Below, piece after piece: positions 37,978-47,891 of a DNA stretch of 64,000 nucleotides. Under the pieces are notes generated by a model that searched no databases, had not been told where the DNA came from, and saw only the letters and a program-made list of their open reading frames with translations. Numbering within the stretch: position 1 is the stretch's first letter; each line of letters opens with the position of its first letter. This DNA is from Actinomycetes bacterium (GTDB taxonomy: Bacteria > Actinomycetota > Acidimicrobiia > Acidimicrobiales > RAAP-2): contig JAKBNL010000002.1 of assembly GCA_021831035.1 (NCBI GenBank), positions 1 to 64,000 on the forward strand. The letters are read 5' to 3'. The position numbers and the translations under genes were made by a program.

Positions 37978-39615
37978 GTGAAGAGCCGCCGCACACTCGT
38001 CGTGGGTCTCGCGGCCCTCGCGTCGAGCCTTACCCCCCTCGTGGCCGCCTCGGCGACGTCGACCACCACGACCACGTCACCCTCGGGCGGCACCACGACG
38101 ACCACGGCCGTGGCCCGCACCTACCTCGGTCCCGACGGCGTCGTGTCGTCGGCCATCGTCGCCGAGAACAAGCGACGCGGCACCACCTCGTGGCGAATCG
38201 GGCCCAACACCTCGGTCACGGCTATCCAGGGTTTCGCCAACACGACCTACGCGGCGATCGGTCAGAGCGTGACCCTGCGGGTGTCGACCGACCTCCCGCG
38301 GTACCGCGTCGTCGCGTACCGGATGGGGTACTACCAGGGCCTCGGCGCGCGCGAAGTCTGGAGCTCGGGCCAACTCATCGGACAACGCCAACCAGCCTGC
38401 CCGCTCGACCCGTCGACGAACATGGTCAGTTGCGCCAACTGGACGCCGTCGCTCAGCTTCCCCGTCACCTCGGCGTTCGTGCCCGGTGACTACCTGTTGA
38501 AACTCGTGGCCGGTCCCCGCGCCGCGAGCTACGTCCCACTCACGATCTGGGATCCGCACAGTCGCGCGACCTACGTCATCATGAACCGCTCGCTGGTTGA
38601 GCAGGGCTGGAACACCTACGGCGGATTTTCCTACTACGCCGGGGTCGGGCCGTGCATCCTGGACACGAGCTCCTACCCGCCGTGCAACCGCGCTCGGGTG
38701 GTCTCCTTCGACCGTCCCTACGACACCGGGGCGGGTTCGTCGGACTTCCTGACCAACGAGTACCCCCTCGTGCGCCTGGCCGAGAAGGAGGGGCTCGACG
38801 TCACCTACATCACCGACATCACCCTCGACGAGCACCCGTCGCTCCTGCTCGCCCACAAGGCGCTGCTCACCCTCGATCACGACGAGACCTGGACCTACCA
38901 GGAGCGTCTCGCGGTCCTGCGCGCCACCGCGCGGGGGGTGAACGTCGTCTACTTCGGCGCCGCGGCGATGGTGCGCCACGCGCGGCTGGAGCCCTCCGCC
39001 CTCGGCCCCGACCGCCAGGAGGTCGACTACCGCAACGGCGCCGAGGACCCGCTCTTCGGCCACGGCCCCCCCGAGCAGGTGACGGGCAACACCTGGGAGG
39101 ACCCGCCGGCCGACTGGTCGCCGGTGCCCCAGATCGGCGAGGAGTACGTCGGCTACCTGGCCCCGGGGCAGAGCGCGCCGATGGTCGTGACCGACGCCGG
39201 CTCCTGGCTGTACCGCGGCACGGGGCTGCACAACGGCTCGACGATCCCCGGGGTCATCGCCTCGGACATCGACCGGGTCATCCCCTCGGCGGCCAACCCC
39301 GCCAACCTCGAGATCCTCTCGCACTCGCCCATCCCGACCTCGACCGGGACGTTCAGCTCGACGACCTGGGCCGGCTACACCTACGCCGACTTCGTCTACT
39401 TCACCGATCCGCATAGCCTGGCCGGCGTCGTCGACACCGGCAACAACGTGTGGATCGGTGACCTGCGGCCCTGTCCGCGCAGCGACCCGGGCTGTCCGAC
39501 GCCGCTGATGACGGCGATGACCAACAACATCTTGCGCCTGGTCGGTCGGGGCCCCGCCGGTCGGTACGAACCGTCCCACAACAACCTGGCCTCCGTCGCG
39601 CCCGCCGGTTCCTGA
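37978..39615 (+). CDS. Exported protein with N,N-dimethylformamidase beta-subunit-like domain
   Basis: 545 aa. A signal peptide (KSRRTLVVGLAALASSLTPL, cleavage near ASA at residue 26) is followed by a Thr-rich linker (residues 28-46). The remainder resembles the C-terminal domain of the N,N-dimethylformamidase large subunit: RVVAYRMGYYQGLGAREVW, then TYVIMNRSLVEQGWNTYGGF and LDVTYITDITLDEHP, an amidotransferase-like fold. It is found in many actinobacteria as a secreted protein without known substrate; actual DMFase activity is not implied. GTG at 37978 has GGAGGAGACC before it. Confidence 0.8.
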   Translation: MKSRRTLVVGLAALASSLTPLVAASATSTTTTTSPSGGTTTTTAVARTYLGPDGVVSSAIVAENKRRGTTSWRIGPNTSVTAIQGFANTTYAAIGQSVTLRVSTDLPRYRVVAYRMGYYQGLGAREVWSSGQLIGQRQPACPLDPSTNMVSCANWTPSLSFPVTSAFVPGDYLLKLVAGPRAASYVPLTIWDPHSRATYVIMNRSLVEQGWNTYGGFSYYAGVGPCILDTSSYPPCNRARVVSFDRPYDTGAGSSDFLTNEYPLVRLAEKEGLDVTYITDITLDEHPSLLLAHKALLTLDHDETWTYQERLAVLRATARGVNVVYFGAAAMVRHARLEPSALGPDRQEVDYRNGAEDPLFGHGPPEQVTGNTWEDPPADWSPVPQIGEEYVGYLAPGQSAPMVVTDAGSWLYRGTGLHNGSTIPGVIASDIDRVIPSAANPANLEILSHSPIPTSTGTFSSTTWAGYTYADFVYFTDPHSLAGVVDTGNNVWIGDLRPCPRSDPGCPTPLMTAMTNNILRLVGRGPAGRYEPSHNNLASVAPAGS

Positions 39616-40097: not shown

Positions 40098-40640
40098 GTG
40101 GGCGTCGCCGACGAGCTCGCCCGCCTGATCGCCCACCGCGACGCCGGCGAACTCACCGATGAGGAGTTCCAGGCGGCCAAGGCCGACCTTCTCTCGCACC
40201 CTGAGCGAGCCCGGATCGAGACCGCCGGCGTCGAGGTCGAGGGGATCTCCCCGGTGCGCAGGCGCAACCGCCGCCGGGCGCTCGTCGCGGCCACGGTGAT
40301 CGTGCTCGCGCTGGTGGGCTGGGTTGTGGTGAGTGAGGCGATGATCGGCGGGGCCCGGCTCGAGGTGCGCGTGACCTCGGTCACGGCGGTCAACGCCGAC
40401 GTCGTCGAGATCCACGCTACGTTCACCAACGTCGGTGGCCGCGCCAGTCTCGGGCTCTGCCAGGTCACGGTGAGCCTGCCGGGCTCGAGCGGCTCCTCAC
40501 CCCTCCAGACGCCCCCGGAGCCTCTCACCACGGCCCCGGTTCCCCCCGGCGGCACGGCCTCGGGCCGGGCCGAGGTCGTCGTGGTCGCGGGTGACGCCCG
40601 GCGGGTCACCACGCGCGACCTCTCCTTCGCCTGCCAGTAG
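40098..40640 (+). CDS. SHOCT-domain membrane protein
   Basis: 180 aa. Residues 3-33 (ADELARLIAHRDAGELTDEE and following) form a SHOCT-type short C-terminal-like domain, here at the N-terminus. One transmembrane helix (about 59-80, RALVAATVIVLALVGWVVVS) leads into an exported beta-rich domain (ARLEVRVTSVTAVNADVVEI) with two cysteines (SLGLCQVTV and LSFACQ) that may form a disulfide. Function unknown. The GTG starts seven bases after the reductase stop, so the two are probably co-transcribed. Confidence 0.7.
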   Translation: MGVADELARLIAHRDAGELTDEEFQAAKADLLSHPERARIETAGVEVEGISPVRRRNRRRALVAATVIVLALVGWVVVSEAMIGGARLEVRVTSVTAVNADVVEIHATFTNVGGRASLGLCQVTVSLPGSSGSSPLQTPPEPLTTAPVPPGGTASGRAEVVVVAGDARRVTTRDLSFACQ

Positions 40641-40641
40641 G

Positions 40642-42177
40642 TCAGCCCACCCGCAGTGCTACCACCTGTGGGTGACCCTCAGTCGAGCGCTGCCCCGTGG
40701 GCGGTCCCCCGTCGAGCACGATCACGTAGGGGCCCGCGACGGCGAGGGGGGCGTTGGTCGACGTCGGCAGTGCCCGGTCGAGCACGGTCCGACCCGTCGC
40801 ACGCGAGAGGGCGAGTAGGCGGCCGTCGTACAGCGTGGTAAGCACGAGGTCGTTCACGACGGTCATCGCACCCAGGGGGAGGCTCTTTACCGCGACCGTC
40901 CACTCGACCCTCCCCGTCGTGAGGTCGAGTGCCTCGATGGCGCCCCCCTCGTGGGTAGCGGCGGTGGCGACGCCGGTCACCTGGGAGGCCGCGGTGTAGC
41001 TCAACGCCAGGTTGAGTGTCTCGACGTAGACGCTCGAGCCCGCGACGGCGAGGTTGGCGAGTACGCCCCCGAGCGACCCCGGCAGGTAGGTGAAGGGCAA
41101 CGGGGGCATCGGACGGTGGCGCAGCGCGTTGCGCGAGTCGCCGTCGTGGCCGTTGTGCCGTCCGACGAGCGTAGCCCAGAGCAGGTGACCGTTGCGTGCG
41201 TCCAACGCGTAGACGATGCCCATCTTGCCGCTCGCGATCACCACCGGCCGTCCCCCGGCCGACGCGAGCACCGGCGACGTCTGCAGGTCGTAGTCCTTGA
41301 AGTCGTCCGGGACGGCTTGGTAGTACCAGACGAGGCGACCCGTGGACGCCTCGAGGGTCACGGCGCTGTCGGTGTAGAGCTGGCGGGAGGGTGCGGCGTA
41401 CGCCGACCCGATCGACTGGTACGGGTTGCCGGTCCCGTAGGTGACCGTGCCGTCGGGGTTGACGAGCGGCGTCTCCCAGGCTCCCCCCGAGCCCGCGCCG
41501 ACCGCCCGCACGCCGGGCGACTCGCGCCGCGTGGTGTGGAACCGCCAGAGACACGCACCGTCTCTCGCGCGCAGCGCCATGAGGACGCCCCCGCCACGAC
41601 TCAGTCCGTACTGGCTCGCGATGTAGACCCGGCCGTCGGCGACCGCGGGCTGCATCCCGAACGTCCCCTCCCCCTTGTTGAGCAGGTGGCGGTCCAGCCA
41701 CACGATCCGGCCGGTGCGCCTCGAGAGGGCGAACGCGTCGTGGGGCGTGAGGCCGTAGACGCGATCGGCCGACACCGCCACGCCGTTGGGACCCGGCCCG
41801 CTCAGGAGTTTCTCGTTGAAGCGCCGCTCCCAGAGCAGCCGTCCACTCGAGAGCTCGAGCGCGTAGACGTTCGAGTAGATGTCCTGGACGTACACGACCC
41901 CGCCGACGACGATCGGGTTCGCCACGAGGGAGCCGGTGTGCTCCAGCCCGTGGCTCGCGCGACCACGGAGGTGGTACGCCCACACCACCCGCAGACCGCC
42001 GACGGTGGCCGCGGTGATCGGCGAGTCGAGCGCGACCCGCGTGTTGAGAAGGTTGCCGTTGGGAGCGGGTCACGAACCCGTCGTCCCCCCCGTCGCCGCG
42101 CCCGCGGGCACAGCGAGGCTCACCGCGAGGAGGCTCGCCCCCACCACGGCGATCCATCGGGTCGACCTAGTGCGCAC
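40642..42177 (-). pseudogene. Exported PQQ-type beta-propeller protein interrupted by one in-frame TGA
   Basis: From GTG 42177 the frame gives a clear signal peptide (RWIAVVGASLLAVSLAVPAG, then AATGGTTGS) and meets TGA at 42072-42070. The same frame then continues without break as PAPNGNLLNTRVALDSPI, AATVGGLRVVWAYHLRG and a 448-residue quinoprotein propeller (GVVYVQDIYSNVYALELSSG, YGTGNPYQSIGSAY, DDFKDYDLQTSPVL) to 40642. The NLLNTR..ITAATVGGLRVVWAY stretch is the usual N-terminus of PQQ-dependent alcohol-dehydrogenase-like proteins. A single base would restore a 511-aa exported enzyme. It may be a recent nonsense mutation, a base-call error or read-through. The remaining propeller, if made from an internal GTG, would lack an export signal. 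Confidence 0.8.
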
Positions 42178-42227
42178 GCGTCCCCCTCGGCCGTCCGAGG
42201 GTCCCGGGCGGCTCGGGCGACCTTCTG

Positions 42228-42237
42228 ACCCTAGGCT
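42228..42237. promoter_or_regulatory. Overlapping divergent -10 boxes sharing CCTAGG
   Basis: On the plus strand TAGGCT (42232-42237), then CCCGGG, then GTG of the LigT gene: a leaderless promoter. On the minus strand TAGGGT (42233-42228) can serve the propeller gene with a leader of about 44 nt. The two hexamers share two base pairs, so both promoters cannot be occupied at once. Confidence 0.5.
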
Positions 42238-42243
42238 CCCGGG

Positions 42244-42768
42244 GTGGCCGCGCGCGTGCTCTCCGCGACCCCGACGCCGCGCTACCTCGCGCTCCAGCCG
42301 CCGCACGGGGTCCGTCGAGAACTCGCGACGGTCATGGCCGGCCTGGGGATGCGGGACGCCGTTCCCCACGTGACCGTGGTCGCCCCGCCCGAGCTCCCCG
42401 CCGACGACACCTGGTTCGACGCGGTGCGGGCGGTCGCGAGCGCGACGGCCCCGTTCCCCGTCCGCCTCGGGACGGTGGCCTCGTTCGGCGAGCGCGTCCG
42501 GTACCTCCGCGTCGACGGGGAGGGCGTCGACGCGCTTCGTGCCGCGCTCGAGGTGGCCCTCGGGCTCGCCCCGCGCGCGCAGCCCTTCGTCGCCCACCTC
42601 ACCCTGGCCGTGGCCCGTCGCGGGGCGCTCCCCGGGGTCGCCGCCGGAGCGATCCCCGAGTCCGTGCGCCGACCCTTCCTCGCCACCGCCCTCGCGCTGT
42701 TCGCCCGCCCGACGGCCGCGGCGCCCTACGCGCGAGTGCGGACCTTCCCGTTCGCCGGCGAGCCGTGA
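42244..42768 (+). CDS. 2'-5' RNA ligase / RNA 2',3'-cyclic phosphodiesterase family (LigT-like)
   Basis: 174 aa, 2H phosphoesterase fold. Both HxT motifs are there: PHVTVV near residue 41 and AHLTLAV near residue 119. The N-terminus has RYLALQPPHGVRRELATVMA. Members open 2',3'-cyclic phosphates of RNA or nucleotides. GTG at 42244 lies six bases after TAGGCT, with no ribosome site. Confidence 0.85.
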   Translation: MAARVLSATPTPRYLALQPPHGVRRELATVMAGLGMRDAVPHVTVVAPPELPADDTWFDAVRAVASATAPFPVRLGTVASFGERVRYLRVDGEGVDALRAALEVALGLAPRAQPFVAHLTLAVARRGALPGVAAGAIPESVRRPFLATALALFARPTAAAPYARVRTFPFAGEP

Positions 42769-42792
42769 TCGGGGCGTGCTAGGCCAGAGGGC

Positions 42793-43086
42793 GTGTCGAC
42801 CTTCCTCGTCACCCGCCACCGCACGGGTCCCTCGTGGGCCCCGACGCGCCCGATGGAGGCGCAGTCCGGCTGGTCGGAGCACGCGCGCGTCATGGACGAT
42901 CTGGTGGCGCGCGGCACCATCGTCCTCGGCGGACCCGTCGGCGACGGCGAGCGGGTGGTGCTGGTCTGCGAGGCGGCCTCCGCGGAGGCGCTCACCGACG
43001 CGCTCGCCGACGACCCCTGGACCGACAGCCACCTGATCGACGTGGTCGAGCCCCTCTGCCTTCGCCTCGACGCGCGACGCCCGTGA
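42793..43086 (+). CDS. YCII-related domain protein
   Basis: 97 aa, YciI/ferredoxin-like fold (FLVTRHRTGPSWAPTRPMEA, EHARVMDDLVARGTIVLGGP). The catalytic-type His of YciI appears as EHARVMD. Function of the group is largely unknown. GTG at 42793 has AGAGGG five bases upstream at best; TAGGCC further upstream may be a degenerate -10. It overlaps the next gene by GTGA. Confidence 0.82.
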   Translation: MSTFLVTRHRTGPSWAPTRPMEAQSGWSEHARVMDDLVARGTIVLGGPVGDGERVVLVCEAASAEALTDALADDPWTDSHLIDVVEPLCLRLDARRP

Positions 43087-43529
43087 GGGGTCCGCGCGAG
43101 GCCGGCGTGTCGGTCGTCTCCGCCCTCGCCGGCGTCGTCATCGTGCTCGTCCTGGGCTCGATCGTCCTCTCCCAGACCCTCGGGGGAAGCCCCGCGCACC
43201 ACGGCGCCCCCGCGTCCCAGCCGGGCCGACCCGCGACGGCGCCCGCCCTGGCCAGCGCGCCGCCGGCCGCCGTTCACGCGGCGTGCGTGACCGACGTGGC
43301 GGCGATCGAGTCGGCGGTCGCCGCGTACGAGACCCTCCACGGGTCCCTCCCGCCGGCCGGGACGGCCTGGGCCACGGGGGTCGGGGGTCCCCTGGCCGGG
43401 CAGCGCTGGCCCTCGGGGGACGCGTCGTTCACCCTGGAGTGGACCGGGACGAGCGTCGGCGTGCGACCCCTGCGCGGTCCCCACGCCCGTCAGGTCATCC
43501 TCGGCGCGGCCGGCTGCGCCGACCTGTAG
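43083..43529 (+). CDS. Pilin-like exported protein, 148 aa
   Basis: A short charged N-terminus (RGPREAG) is followed by one hydrophobic helix (VSVVSALAGVVIVLVLGSIV) and an exported Ala/Pro-rich stretch. The C-terminus (CVTDVAAIESAVAAYETLHG, then GPLAGQRWPSGDASFTLEWT) resembles actinobacterial type IV pilin-like proteins that have a Cys-D-x2-(A/T)-(V/I)-E..A-V-x-A-Y helix and a WPS motif. The class III cleavage pattern (G then hydrophobic helix) is partly there but the usual Glu5 is absent. GTG start overlaps the YCII gene's stop (GTGA). Minor pseudopilin or plain secreted protein; uncertain. Confidence 0.6.
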   Translation: MRGPREAGVSVVSALAGVVIVLVLGSIVLSQTLGGSPAHHGAPASQPGRPATAPALASAPPAAVHAACVTDVAAIESAVAAYETLHGSLPPAGTAWATGVGGPLAGQRWPSGDASFTLEWTGTSVGVRPLRGPHARQVILGAAGCADL

Positions 43530-44549
43530 TCACCGTGGGACGATCGTGACCCGCTCGGTGTTCGAGAGCAGCTCGACCCAGGTTTGACCCGGGGCGAGCT
43601 CGATGACCTTGCCCTGGTCGTTGGTGAAGACGGTGCGGTGGTAGAGGTTCGCGCGGTGCCAGTGGCCGTGCTGGACGACCCCGCCGGTGAAGACCTCGAC
43701 CGGGCCCGAGCCGACCAACTGCGCGTAGGAGTCGATCACGCCCACGCCGCCCACGTAGTTGACCGACATCACGATCACGTTCTTCGGGGCGAGCTGGACG
43801 CCGTTGGCCGACTTCTCGAGCGAGCCGAAGAGTGAACGGTCCCAGCGGCGCGTCGTCGGGTTCCAGGTATAGGTCACGGCGTAGCCGGCCTCGAAGCCCA
43901 CCGTGAAGGCGTGCACCGCGGGACCGTGCGCGAACTGGCCCGGGGCGAGGTAGGTGAACAGGGGTCGGGTCGGACGGGGCACGCCGCCCGTTCCCATCAG
44001 GAGCTGCGCGTTCGCGAAGAGGTTGTGGGGCACGGGACGAGAGGGATCACGGAACATCGCGGCGCCGGCGTTCGCCTCGTCGACCAGCTTCACGGGGGCC
44101 GTCGCGATGCTGCGCAGGGCGTACTGCGCCCCACCGCTGAAGGCGAAGATCCCCCCGATGGGAAAGACGATCTCGCGATCGGTGCGCCGCACCGAGCGAA
44201 CCGGTCCGACCACCGTGGGCAGCTGGGAGTCGAAGATCGCGGCCAGACGCGTGATGCCGCCCTCGACGATCTCCTCGTAGACGACGTCGGCGTCCTGCAC
44301 GCCGTACTGGGGCATGGCCTGGGGGGTGTTATCGATCTTGATCGTGAGGGCCGAGCGGTGCTGGGTGAGATGGTGCGGGTCGGGTAGGCCCGTCAGGGGG
44401 TCGACGTAGACGCGCGGGGGTGCCGTCGTGGAGGTCGCCCCGCCGCTCGCCGGCGAGGTCGTGGTCGTGGTGTCCGAGGCCCGAGCCGGCCCCGCGAGGA
44501 CGGCCACCAGGGCGAGGGCGAGGGCGAGGGGGGTCAGGGCGCGGCGCAC
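43530..44549 (-). CDS. DUF3048 (YerB-like) exported protein
   Basis: 339 aa. Signal peptide MRRALTPLALALALVAVLAG, cleavage near ARA-SD, then a Thr-rich linker (DTTTTTSPASGGATSTT). The two DUF3048 blocks follow: VYVDPLTGLPDP, KIDNTPQAMPQYGVQDADVV, GGITRLAAIFDS and VGPVRSVRRTDREI, and after residue 250 the C-terminal block (PKNVIVMSVNY, LAPGQTWVELLSNTERVTIV). The family is exported in Firmicutes and actinobacteria with unknown function. GTG at 44549 is chosen because TAGTTT lies seven bases ahead; a TTG at 44567 would add six residues. Confidence 0.88.
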   Translation of the reverse strand: MRRALTPLALALALVAVLAGPARASDTTTTTSPASGGATSTTAPPRVYVDPLTGLPDPHHLTQHRSALTIKIDNTPQAMPQYGVQDADVVYEEIVEGGITRLAAIFDSQLPTVVGPVRSVRRTDREIVFPIGGIFAFSGGAQYALRSIATAPVKLVDEANAGAAMFRDPSRPVPHNLFANAQLLMGTGGVPRPTRPLFTYLAPGQFAHGPAVHAFTVGFEAGYAVTYTWNPTTRRWDRSLFGSLEKSANGVQLAPKNVIVMSVNYVGGVGVIDSYAQLVGSGPVEVFTGGVVQHGHWHRANLYHRTVFTNDQGKVIELAPGQTWVELLSNTERVTIVPR

Positions 44550-44556
44550 GACGGCC

Positions 44557-44562
44557 AAACTA
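44557..44562 (-). promoter_or_regulatory. -10 box TAGTTT, near-leaderless promoter of the DUF3048 gene
   Basis: TAGTTT, then GGCCGTC, then GTG at 44549 on the minus strand. Seven bases separate hexamer and start, one more than in the other cases. Confidence 0.45.
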
Positions 44563-44651
44563 GCCAAGGCCCCGCGCCGCCGGTCCGCAGCGGCGCGCCG
44601 CAGCGGTCACCGGACCGGACCGGCCGCTACGCCCGGGCACCGAGGGGGACG

Positions 44652-45329
44652 GTGACGACACTCGACGTGGCGCTGGAGGTCGGGCGCAAGGGTCGTCGGG
44701 TGGGCGACGCGGTGGCCGCGGCTCGAGCGCGGGGGCGCGAGCCCCGAGGAGGCGGTGGCGTGACTGGCGGCCTACCGGGACCGCTGCGCGCCGGGGGCGC
44801 GGCCGGCGGGTCGGGGGCCCAGTTCTCCTCGACCGCGCGGCCCCGGGTCGTCGTGACCTATCCCGGAGTCGGCGCCACCGACGTCTGGGGCATCTCCTTC
44901 GCGTCGTGCGGGCTCGACGAGGCCCCCCTCGGCACCGCGGCGTTCGCGTGCCAGCTCGAACTGCTCGCGGCTGCGTGGCGGTTCTTCGACCGGGCGCGCG
45001 AGCGTCTCCGCCGAAGTGCGCACCGACCCGCGCGGCGCCGGGCGGGACCGCGGGGCGATCGCCGGTCACCTGCGGCGCGGTCAGCAGGACGGGGCCCGCA
45101 CGGTCGGGGTCGCGCCGGTCGAGGAACCGCTCGACGATCCCTCGGCCCTCGGCCGCCACCGCGAGGAGTTCCTCCGAGCACTCGCCGCCCACCACGCCGA
45201 AGGTCGCCGGGCGCGGACCTGGACGCTGCCCTCCTCGTGCGACACAGCGCCTTCCACGTGCTCGACCACGCCTGGGAGATGCGAGATGGGGACCTCCGCG
45301 CGAGCGGCGACGCTTTCGGTTCGACCTAG
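44652..45329 (+). pseudogene. Decayed member of an actinobacterial conserved-hypothetical family
   Basis: Family fragments appear in alternating frames. TTLDVALEVGRKGRRV is read from GTG 44652 (ribosome site GAGGGGGAC). Then RGGASPEEAVA, a TGA at 44761 and LAAYRDRCAPGARPAG are read one frame over. Back in the first frame come RVVVTYPGVGATDVW and ELLAAAWRFFDRAR; then shifted again ASVSAEVRTDPRGAGRDRGA and EPLDDPSALGRHREEFLRAL; and finally the first frame with VRHSAFHVLDHAWEMRDGDL. From memory this is the layout of a 200-odd-residue actinobacterial protein that ends in the signature HVLDHAWE. At least four frame changes plus one stop make a functional product impossible. The function of the intact family is unknown to me. 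Confidence 0.75.
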
Positions 45330-45396
45330 GGTCGCGCGCGGCCCCCCTGCGCGACACCCGCGAGAACGGCGACGCCGCCGCTCGGCGAACGCTCGC

Positions 45397-45633
45397 TCAG
45401 GCCACCCGGTTGCGCTGGGTCGGCGCGGCGCACTCCCGACACAGGATCACCGACGGCGGGAACTCCCGGTCGGGTTGGGGCGAGCGGAAGATCCGCACGA
45501 CCCCCGTCGAACGGCATCGCGTGTGGTGCCAGCAGGAGCGCCGCGAGCACCCGCACGGGCCCGTCGCCGGCTGGCGGGTGCGGCCCGTTCGTTCAGCCCA
45601 GTGGGCCGACACCGCCGCCTGAAGATCGCCCAT
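45397..45633 (-). CDS. Small Cys-rich hypothetical protein, 78 aa
   Basis: ATG at 45633 (a second ATG directly before it) follows GGAGG by five bases, a good ribosome site in a region otherwise poor in them. The protein begins MGDLQAAVSAHWAERTGRTR and has a middle cluster CGCSRRSCWHHTRC and a final CREC, seven cysteines and three histidines that could hold zinc. No signal peptide. I do not recognise a family. It sits between a pseudogene and the MMPL transporter. Coding status rests on the ribosome site and the Cys/His pattern. Confidence 0.45.
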   Translation of the reverse strand: MGDLQAAVSAHWAERTGRTRQPATGPCGCSRRSCWHHTRCRSTGVVRIFRSPQPDREFPPSVILCRECAAPTQRNRVA

Positions 45634-45752
45634 CATGACCTCCGGAACTACCCTTCCACCAGGGTATCGAGGACCGGTCCGCACACGGTGGATGGTCGCC
45701 TCGAGTCGCCCGGTGGGTCTTGGGTCCCCCTCGCCGGGGACGGACCACTCTG

Positions 45753-45758
45753 TACACT
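45753..45758 (+). promoter_or_regulatory. Leaderless promoter -10 box of the MMPL gene
   Basis: TACACT, then GCGCCG, then the GTG at 45765. It fixes the transporter's start 45 bases inside the longest possible frame. Confidence 0.6.
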
Positions 45759-45764
45759 GCGCCG

Positions 45765-47891
45765 GTGTCCGAGGGCTGGGTCCGCGCCGTGGTGCGCGCA
45801 CGGGCGGTCGTCCTCGTGCTCTGGGCCGTGGTCGCGACCCTCGGGATCGTCGGCGCCGGCCCGCTCTCGAGCCGGCTCTCCACCTCGCTCGACGTCCCAG
45901 GAACGGGCTCGGCCGCCGCCAACGCGACCCTGGCGCGGGCCTTCCACGAGAACGCGGACGGGTCGTTCACCGTCGTGGTGGCCCGTCGGCACCTCGGCCC
46001 GGCACGTGAGCGCGCGCTGCGCGCCGAGCTCGCGCGCGCGCTCGGCGGCGCGGTACCCGCCCGGATCGTCGACAGTCGAGCCGTCGGCGGAGTCTGGTAC
46101 GCGGTGGTGAGCACCCCGCTCGGCCTCGCCCGGGCCGCCGCCCTCACCGGGGTGCTGCGCCACCGCCTGGCCGTCAACGGTCCCGTCGGGGCACTCCTCA
46201 CCGGGCCGCCGGCCCTACAGAGCGACCTCGGCCCGGTCCTGCGCGTCGACCTCGCCCGGGGGCTCGCCGTCGCCCTCGTCGCGGCCCTCGTCGTGCTCGC
46301 CCTCACGCTCGGCGTGGGCGCCGCGTTGCTGGTGCCGCTGATCATCGCCCTGGCCACCGTCGGGGCTTCCCTGGCGGTCCTCGAGCTGCTCGCGCACCGG
46401 GTCACGATCTCGCTCTACGCGCCGAACCTCGTCGAGCTCGTCGGGCTCGGCCTCGCCGTCGACTACGCCCTGCTCCTCGTCCACCGGCTGCGCGAGGAGG
46501 CCGGGCGCGCGAGTGATCCCACCGCCGCCGTCGTGGCCACGATGGCCAGCGCGGGGCGCACGGTCGTCACCTCGGGCCTCGTGGTGGCCGTCGGGCTCGC
46601 CGCCCTCCTGGTGGAACCGGTGGCCTTCGTCCGCTCGCTGGGTCTCGCCGGGCTCGTGGTGGCCCTGGTCGCCGTGGCCTCGGCGCTCACCCTCGCCCCG
46701 ACGGTCCTCTCATTGCTCGGGCCCCGGGCGCGGCGCTCGCGCGCGCGGCGCGTGGGCCGGGACGCCTGGGGTCGGCTCGCCCGCACGGTGCTCGCCCGTC
46801 GCCGCCTCGCCCTCGCGGGATCGCTCGGCGTGCTCCTCGCGCTCGCGAGCCCCCTCCTGGCGCTGCGCCTCACGCCCCTGACCCTGGCCTCGCTGCCCCG
46901 GTCCATGGCCTCGGTGCGCGCCCTCGACCTGGTGAGCGCCCGGCTCGGTCCCGGTGTCGCCACCCCCCTCACCGTGGTGATCGACACGCATCGGGTGGGC
47001 GGCGACGCCGCGCCGGGCGAGTCCGCCGCGCGCCTGCGCCTCGCGACCGCGCTCTCGCGCGACCGCGAGGTCGAGATCGCGGCCGTCGGCACCTCCCCGC
47101 CCTTCGTCGCGGGGTCCGGGCGCTTCGCCCAGATCGACGTCGTCGCCCGCGAGGCGTTCGGCTCGCCCGCGGTCCAGGCGCTGGTGGCACGGGTGCGCGC
47201 GGATCTCGTGCCGTCCGCCCGTTTCCCGGCGGGCACCACCGTCGAGGTCGGCGGGGCGCCCGCCCAGGGCGTCGACTTCCTCGCACGCGTCTACTCCGCC
47301 GCTCCCCTCGTCGCCGTGGCGGCGCTGGCGGCGACCTCCCTGCTGGTCGGCCTGGCCCTCGCCTCGTGGCCCCTCGCCCTCCTCTCGGGGGCCCTCGCCC
47401 TCGCCAGCCAGGCGGCCGCCCTCGGGGTCACGGTCGCGACGGTCCGCCTAGGGCTCCTCACCACGCCGACCACGGGTCAGGTCGAGGGGTGGGTGCCCGT
47501 CTTCCTCTTCGCGCTCCTGCTCGGGCTCTCCACCGACTACCAGGTCTTCATCCTCGCGCGCGCCCGCGAGGCGTTCGCCCGCCACCACGACCCCGCCCTC
47601 GCCATCGAGGAGGCCCTGGCGCGCACCGGCGCGGTGGTCAGTGCGGCGGCGCTCGTGATGGTCGGGGCGCTCGCCGGTCTCGCGCTCGGGCGGGTGGCCG
47701 GTCTCGACGAACTCGGCGTCGGCCTCGCCGCGGGGGTGCTGATCGACGTCGTCGTGGTGCGCGGGGTCCTGCTACCCAGCGCCGTCGGGCTGCTCGGGCG
47801 ACGCACGTTCGGGCGACCCCGCGTGCCCGACCCCGCACCGGCCCCGGGGATGGAGGGTGGGCGCGGGGTCGGGCGAGGATCGGCTACTTGA
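45765..47891 (+). CDS. MMPL-family RND transporter
   Basis: 708 aa with the two-fold RND layout: helix 1 (ARAVVLVLWAVVATLGIVGA), a periplasmic domain, helices 2-6, a second exported loop (near residues 385-520) and helices 8-12. The MMPL signature appears as FLFALLLGLSTDYQVFILAR near residue 580-600, and the first-half equivalent is VELVGLGLAVDYALLLVHRL. The paired Asp-Tyr residues are the proton relay of MmpL3-type proteins. Substrates in relatives are lipids or lipopeptides. No MmpS partner is adjacent. It converges with a large exported protein. Confidence 0.9.
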   Translation: MSEGWVRAVVRARAVVLVLWAVVATLGIVGAGPLSSRLSTSLDVPGTGSAAANATLARAFHENADGSFTVVVARRHLGPARERALRAELARALGGAVPARIVDSRAVGGVWYAVVSTPLGLARAAALTGVLRHRLAVNGPVGALLTGPPALQSDLGPVLRVDLARGLAVALVAALVVLALTLGVGAALLVPLIIALATVGASLAVLELLAHRVTISLYAPNLVELVGLGLAVDYALLLVHRLREEAGRASDPTAAVVATMASAGRTVVTSGLVVAVGLAALLVEPVAFVRSLGLAGLVVALVAVASALTLAPTVLSLLGPRARRSRARRVGRDAWGRLARTVLARRRLALAGSLGVLLALASPLLALRLTPLTLASLPRSMASVRALDLVSARLGPGVATPLTVVIDTHRVGGDAAPGESAARLRLATALSRDREVEIAAVGTSPPFVAGSGRFAQIDVVAREAFGSPAVQALVARVRADLVPSARFPAGTTVEVGGAPAQGVDFLARVYSAAPLVAVAALAATSLLVGLALASWPLALLSGALALASQAAALGVTVATVRLGLLTTPTTGQVEGWVPVFLFALLLGLSTDYQVFILARAREAFARHHDPALAIEEALARTGAVVSAAALVMVGALAGLALGRVAGLDELGVGLAAGVLIDVVVVRGVLLPSAVGLLGRRTFGRPRVPDPAPAPGMEGGRGVGRGSAT

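Follow-up and report, generated by a model that had tools for sequence, protein, structure and literature searches.

A single in-frame TGA at an invariant tryptophan of a secreted quinoprotein gene is probably a recent nonsense allele

Introduction

Why does one TGA codon interrupt an otherwise intact gene for a putative secreted quinoprotein? The question arises in a stretch of 64,000 nt from a draft genome of an Actinomycetes bacterium (contig JAKBNL010000002.1, positions 1 to 64,000; the whole stretch is hereafter the window). On its minus strand, a frame for a protein with a pyrroloquinoline quinone (PQQ)-type propeller opens at GTG 42177, meets TGA at 42072-42070 and continues in phase to 40642. 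A preliminary description of the locus had left three explanations side by side: a very recent nonsense mutation, a base error and regulated read-through. Here, we assign a probability of about 0.7 to the reading that, in this lineage, an accessory gene for a secreted quinoprotein was switched off by a very recent nonsense mutation, because the stop occurs in one genome only, the relatives have TGG at the site, TGA is a working stop in this genome and the gene is dispensable.

The interrupted gene

If the TGA is read, the gene (40642..42177) encodes 511 residues. The first 35 codons from the GTG (42073..42177) specify an N-terminus (VRTRSTRWIAVVGASLLAVSLAVPAGAATGGTTGS) that is signal-peptide-like by eye, and this peptide would be the sole product if the stop works. 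A ribosome-binding-site-like sequence, GAGGGGGA, lies at 42188-42181, and the syntenic relative has the identical eight letters immediately 5' of its aligned GTG. The TGA is the single stop in the frame before the gene's own terminator (40642..40644), which is likewise TGA. The 475 codons beyond it (40645..42069) are all sense codons and are assigned to the propeller domain by a profile match and by comparison with relatives. With independent letters at the composition of the window, an open frame of 475 codons has a chance of about 5e-4.

The Pfam family PQQ (PF01011) matches the part without the first 36 codons with an E value of 1.7e-33. When the TGA is read as tryptophan (Trp), the E value is 2.5e-34 and the score is 119.4 bits, against a gathering score of 26.7. 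In the read-through protein, the residue encoded by the TGA (residue 36) aligns with profile position 1, where the match starts. The frame, the signal-peptide-like start with its ribosome site, and the PQQ-type propeller with no other defect (85% identity to the syntenic stop-free copy from the Trp codon onward) are thus as the preliminary description gave them. Its placement of the stop in an unconserved linker was wrong, as the stop falls on the invariant first residue of the propeller domain.

The best fold matches of the protein are 1kv9 and 1yiq, and among PDB sequences it matches PedH (6zcw) best, placing it, by fold and sequence comparison, among the quinoprotein alcohol dehydrogenases. 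It resembles the PQQ-type dehydrogenase propellers, such as the quinohemoprotein alcohol dehydrogenase 1kv9, in the domain match from residue 36 and in the fold matches. It differs from them in being shorter, at 511 residues, and in reaching no NCBIfam cut-off (the best model for the downstream part, TIGR04528, scores 139.4 of 650 bits), and cofactor use is at most predicted. A search of the genome for PqqC gave no match, but the control matched nowhere either, so the search is uninformative on PQQ. The AlphaFold model has a mean pLDDT (predicted local distance difference test) of 71.6, but values below 50 at residues 1-44, and is therefore uninformative on the packing of W36.

The stop site in relatives

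In a first scan of the genome collection, all ten relatives found (53-85% identity) have TGG at the place of the stop codon. The enlarged set has 39 rows, comprising 25 assessed relatives, 13 that start too far inside the protein and the window's own copy. A relative was assessed if its match begins at most 8 residues from the stop site; for matches beginning a few residues in, the codon was located by gapless counting back. All 25 assessed relatives, including the syntenic same-genus copy, have TGG. By DNA over the whole downstream part, 21 of them are distinct after removal of duplicates and of the partial copy L114, which also has TGG at the site. This outcome of the orthologue comparison that had been proposed earlier fits a recent nonsense mutation or a base error. 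Orthologues that lack a signal peptide and start inside, the alternative envisaged in the preliminary description, were not found; the relatives with enough upstream sequence mostly have a signal-peptide-like or lipoprotein-like stretch before the Trp, as judged by eye rather than by a predictor.

In a survey of the genus at E <= 1e-20, 14 of 99 genomes match the gene, the window's own included, and the internal stop is present only in the window's own genome. The stop is, on this comparison, derived and seen in this genome alone among the genomes compared. Because only 13 of the 98 other genomes of the genus match, the gene is, judged by its distribution, accessory or dispensable in the genus. 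The relatives L003-L011 (53-59% identity) are from metagenome-assembled genomes (MAGs) named Solirubrobacterales, Acidimicrobiaceae, Actinomycetes and Dormiibacterota, a patchy spread.

Constraint on the gene

The nearest relative is the same-genus MAG JA4.bin50 (L002), in which the gene lies in a block colinear with the window (84% identity over 12.3 kb and 83% over another 5.8 kb). A further copy, L102 in G121, is the same DNA. Between the window copy and this relative, the ratio of nonsynonymous to synonymous substitution rates (dN/dS) is 0.168 from the Trp codon onward, with the TGA column omitted. For the whole gene, dN/dS is 0.207; the median for 33 of 35 rows is 0.19. This median counts the quinoprotein gene and two overlapping pairs of rows, and omits two rows that both belong to a multi-lesion gene at 46% identity. 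Measured against 18 outgroups, the window copy has 15 derived differences and the relative 14. Of the residues invariant in the outgroups, the window copy keeps 130 of 136 (the read-through Trp being scored as kept) and the relative keeps 132. The third-position G+C content of the window copy is 0.908 versus 0.943 in the relative, and a few neighbours drop likewise. The rest of the gene therefore looks to have been under selection, at least until recently. Because dN/dS, derived changes and kept residues resemble those of the relative or the neighbours, the gene does not appear to have been decaying for long, if at all.

Soundness of the assembly and gene decay nearby

The draft genome consists of 20 contigs and is 94.21% complete with 1.2% contamination. 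We called 39 open reading frames (ORFs) in the syntenic blocks of the relative, which correspond to about 0.4-19.7 kb and 31.5-51 kb of the window. Matches to the window were found for 35 of them, at 32 distinct places, and four have no match. At 29 of the 32 places, the best aligned stretch contains no stop. The other three are the quinoprotein gene, a stop at 18053-18051 and a multi-lesion gene at 44652-45326. The stop at 18053-18051 (minus strand) is an in-frame TAA that overlaps the ribosome site AAGGAGG. The likely true GTG start follows this site, and the homologue of the gene is a hexapeptide-repeat protein; since the TAA sits ahead of that start, it is probably not a lesion.

The gene at 44652..45326 (plus strand) is broken by several frame changes and at least one stop, as judged by comparison with the same-genus relative, whose homologue is whole (L115:1504-2190, minus strand, 229 residues). 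Pfam gives no match to the broken gene at 0.001. The lesions are clustered in this gene, 2.5 kb from the quinoprotein gene. Because this gene is plainly broken here and whole in the relative, the comparison shows that gene loss has happened in this stretch in this lineage. The draft around the quinoprotein gene looks, from the same comparison, sound and not error-rich.

Several genes in 40098-47888 of the window are just 56-77% identical to the syntenic relative, and outside this segment 22 of 24 rows are at 82-98%. The third gene along from the 3' end of the quinoprotein gene, on the opposite strand (37978-39612, plus strand), encodes a protein that begins with a signal-peptide-like stretch and contains a DMFA2_C domain (N,N-dimethylformamidase beta-subunit-like; Pfam 7e-86).

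Decoding of TGA in the genome

Stop usage was sampled in 463,101 of the 1,896,294 bases of the genome (the window and 20 further stretches). The 230 long coding-like ORFs in the sample, among which 29 overlapping pairs remain, end in TGA (120), TAG (94) or TAA (16), and TGA is the commonest stop. A coding-potential scan with a filter on G+C by codon position, in whose training set these pairs remain, found 27 stops with coding-like codons on both sides. Three are TGA, and by eye they resemble the end of one gene ahead of the start of the next. The scan is blind to stops right after signal peptides, as the 35 codons before TGA 42072 score -0.06 against a threshold of 0.1. It weighs against genome-wide reassignment of TGA, not against rare single cases. 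The genes for release factor 2 (RF2; prfB) and release factor 1 (RF1; prfA) both score over the cut-off in the genome, and RF2 is intact.

Rfam identified 43 tRNA genes, and typing of the full set revealed no UCA anticodon. The sole tRNA-Trp found has anticodon CCA, a 5-bp anticodon stem (CCGGT/ACCGG), G9 and G24. The available excerpt of PMC13092985 names, for TGA decoding by tRNA-Trp(CCA), a 4-bp stem and the A9C/G24A changes, and these features are absent here. A suppressor tRNA was rejected on these grounds. According to the same excerpt, certain bacteria that read TGA as Trp have the 5-bp form, so the 5-bp stem alone is not decisive. The window's genome resembles the altered tRNA-Trp(CCA) systems described there in having TGA at an expected Trp and in that only a CCA tRNA-Trp was found. 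It differs from them in the 5-bp stem, in G9 and G24, in the presence of RF2 and in TGA being the commonest sampled stop.

Selenocysteine was likewise rejected. SelA has no match in the 94.21% complete genome, in a search whose control matched in 2 of 14 genomes. The search for the selenocysteine tRNA gave nine matches, none over the cut-off and all overlapping ordinary typed tRNAs. The replaced residue is Trp rather than Cys in all 25 assessed relatives, which contradicts the pattern of Cys in place of selenocysteine, and none of these relatives has the stop.

We also examined the RNA around the stop. No Rfam family matches at 41800-42400. A helix can be drawn over the TGA (42074-42031, minus strand) with 10 bp, one of them G-U, and a 24-base loop. 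Its z score of -1.39 is not significant, with 17 of 200 shuffles folding equally well, and the helix is not formed in the nearest relative (z +0.86). Programmed read-through was rejected, since the stop is not conserved in the 25 relatives and the weak helix is not kept in the nearest one.

Routes to a stop in the gene

With the Trp codon of the relatives restored, 119 single substitutions in the quinoprotein gene give a stop. Of these, 31 are transitions, and 20 of the 31 start at Trp codons, half of them yielding TGA. A chance nonsense transition in so G+C-rich a gene mostly strikes Trp. The Trp position of the stop needs no special cause, because 20 of the 31 transition routes to a stop begin at Trp codons.

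Discussion

Under a recent nonsense mutation, the simplest origin of the stop would be one transition at the third base of the Trp codon. Ribosomes would initiate at GTG 42177, synthesize the signal peptide of 35 residues and terminate at the TGA via RF2. The propeller would not be made, save for traces where the TGA is misread as Trp. The product of such a leak would be identical to the normal protein, and the allele may therefore be leaky and not null. We infer that the organism truly carries this base, that the gene is inactive and that any read-through stays at background level. Young bacterial pseudogenes with a single nonsense substitution are of a known kind. The gene resembles them in having one in-frame stop early in a gene that is otherwise intact and is whole in relatives, in its occurrence in one genome and in the patchy distribution among relatives, and no difference from them was observed. 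Two observations weigh against this reading. The gene has no second lesion and its dN/dS is not raised, so that neutral decay is not evident, and this picture is equally what a wrong base, or continued synthesis of the protein by read-through, would give. Either the lesion is too recent for relaxed constraint to show, or constraint was never relaxed.

A base error in the draft, or a base of a minor strain in the consensus, would leave the organism with TGG and a normal gene. Just one base is amiss, the gene is otherwise constrained like its neighbours, and an assembly of this completeness and contamination leaves room for a single wrong base. However, 29 of the 32 compared targets are stop-free in the best aligned stretch, and the lesions of the only other broken gene are clustered, not scattered. 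We consider such an error unlikely, though of the alternatives it deserves the most weight. Of the three options in the preliminary description, the recent nonsense mutation and the base error both fit the evidence, and regulated read-through or selenocysteine did not gain support. The suggested check for a SECIS-like (selenocysteine insertion sequence) structure and selA turned up only the weak helix and no SelA.

Functional read-through is improbable. In this explanation, tRNA-Trp(CCA) decodes the TGA often enough for the stop to act as a throttle on a secreted protein that is still used. The frame is intact and constrained, and the base directly 3' of the internal TGA is C; TGA followed by C is a leaky context in Escherichia coli. 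According to the excerpt of PMC11126739, TGA is the leakiest stop in E. coli and is preferentially misread as Trp, the commonest residue at read-through TGA codons (5 of 10 identified cases). In minimal medium, the TGA reporter means given there are 5.58, 1.11, 0.89 and 0.52% at 18, 25, 37 and 42 degrees, respectively, and in the cold, at 18 degrees, one position reaches about 80% read-through. The 5-bp stem of tRNA-Trp(CCA) is by itself compatible with TGA decoding (PMC13092985, in excerpt). However, the leak of E. coli may not transfer, as the excerpt of PMC11126739 suggests that the inefficient RF2 of strain K-12 contributes to it. The only tRNA-Trp lacks the named changes, no tRNA has a UCA anticodon, the helix is neither significant against shuffles nor formed in the relative, and most single transitions that create a stop in this gene start from Trp codons anyway. 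Belinky et al. (2021, PMC7918605, in excerpt) discuss read-through as a proposed explanation for in-frame stops in constrained prokaryotic genes. The window gene is like them in its in-frame stop and its dN/dS below 1, but its stop is seen in one genome only and in none of the assessed relatives. A more specific version, slightly less probable still, is that the TGA is a population-level throttle, the Trp leak supplying normal quinoprotein at a low, condition-dependent level, so that the gene is down-regulated yet kept.

Translation could also restart after the stop and give a shorter, unexported propeller protein of 448 residues from the in-frame GTG 41988, the first start codon after the stop. 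This GTG is the 28th codon past the stop, and inspection by eye shows no good ribosome site for it. Its product would lack the signal peptide and the invariant W36, N40, L43, N45 and R47, and the assessed relatives run in frame through the Trp, making a restart very improbable. The chance that TGA is reassigned to Trp, or specifies selenocysteine, in this organism is close to negligible. A TGA at an invariant Trp is how reassignment would be expected to look in one gene, but TGA ends 120 of the 230 sampled ORFs and the quinoprotein gene itself, the three TGA candidates among the 27 flanked stops look like gene ends, and the genome has an RF2 gene over the cut-off and neither SelA, a selenocysteine tRNA over the cut-off nor a UCA anticodon.

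As a recent nonsense mutation, the finding is ordinary, an allele of a known kind. Annotation should flag the gene as interrupted; a call of 448 residues beginning at GTG 41988 would have the wrong start. If read-through were shown, the locus would be an example from nature of leakage giving back the wild-type residue. A stop at a conserved Trp is what a single transition is expected to produce in a G+C-rich gene, and it does not point to recoding.
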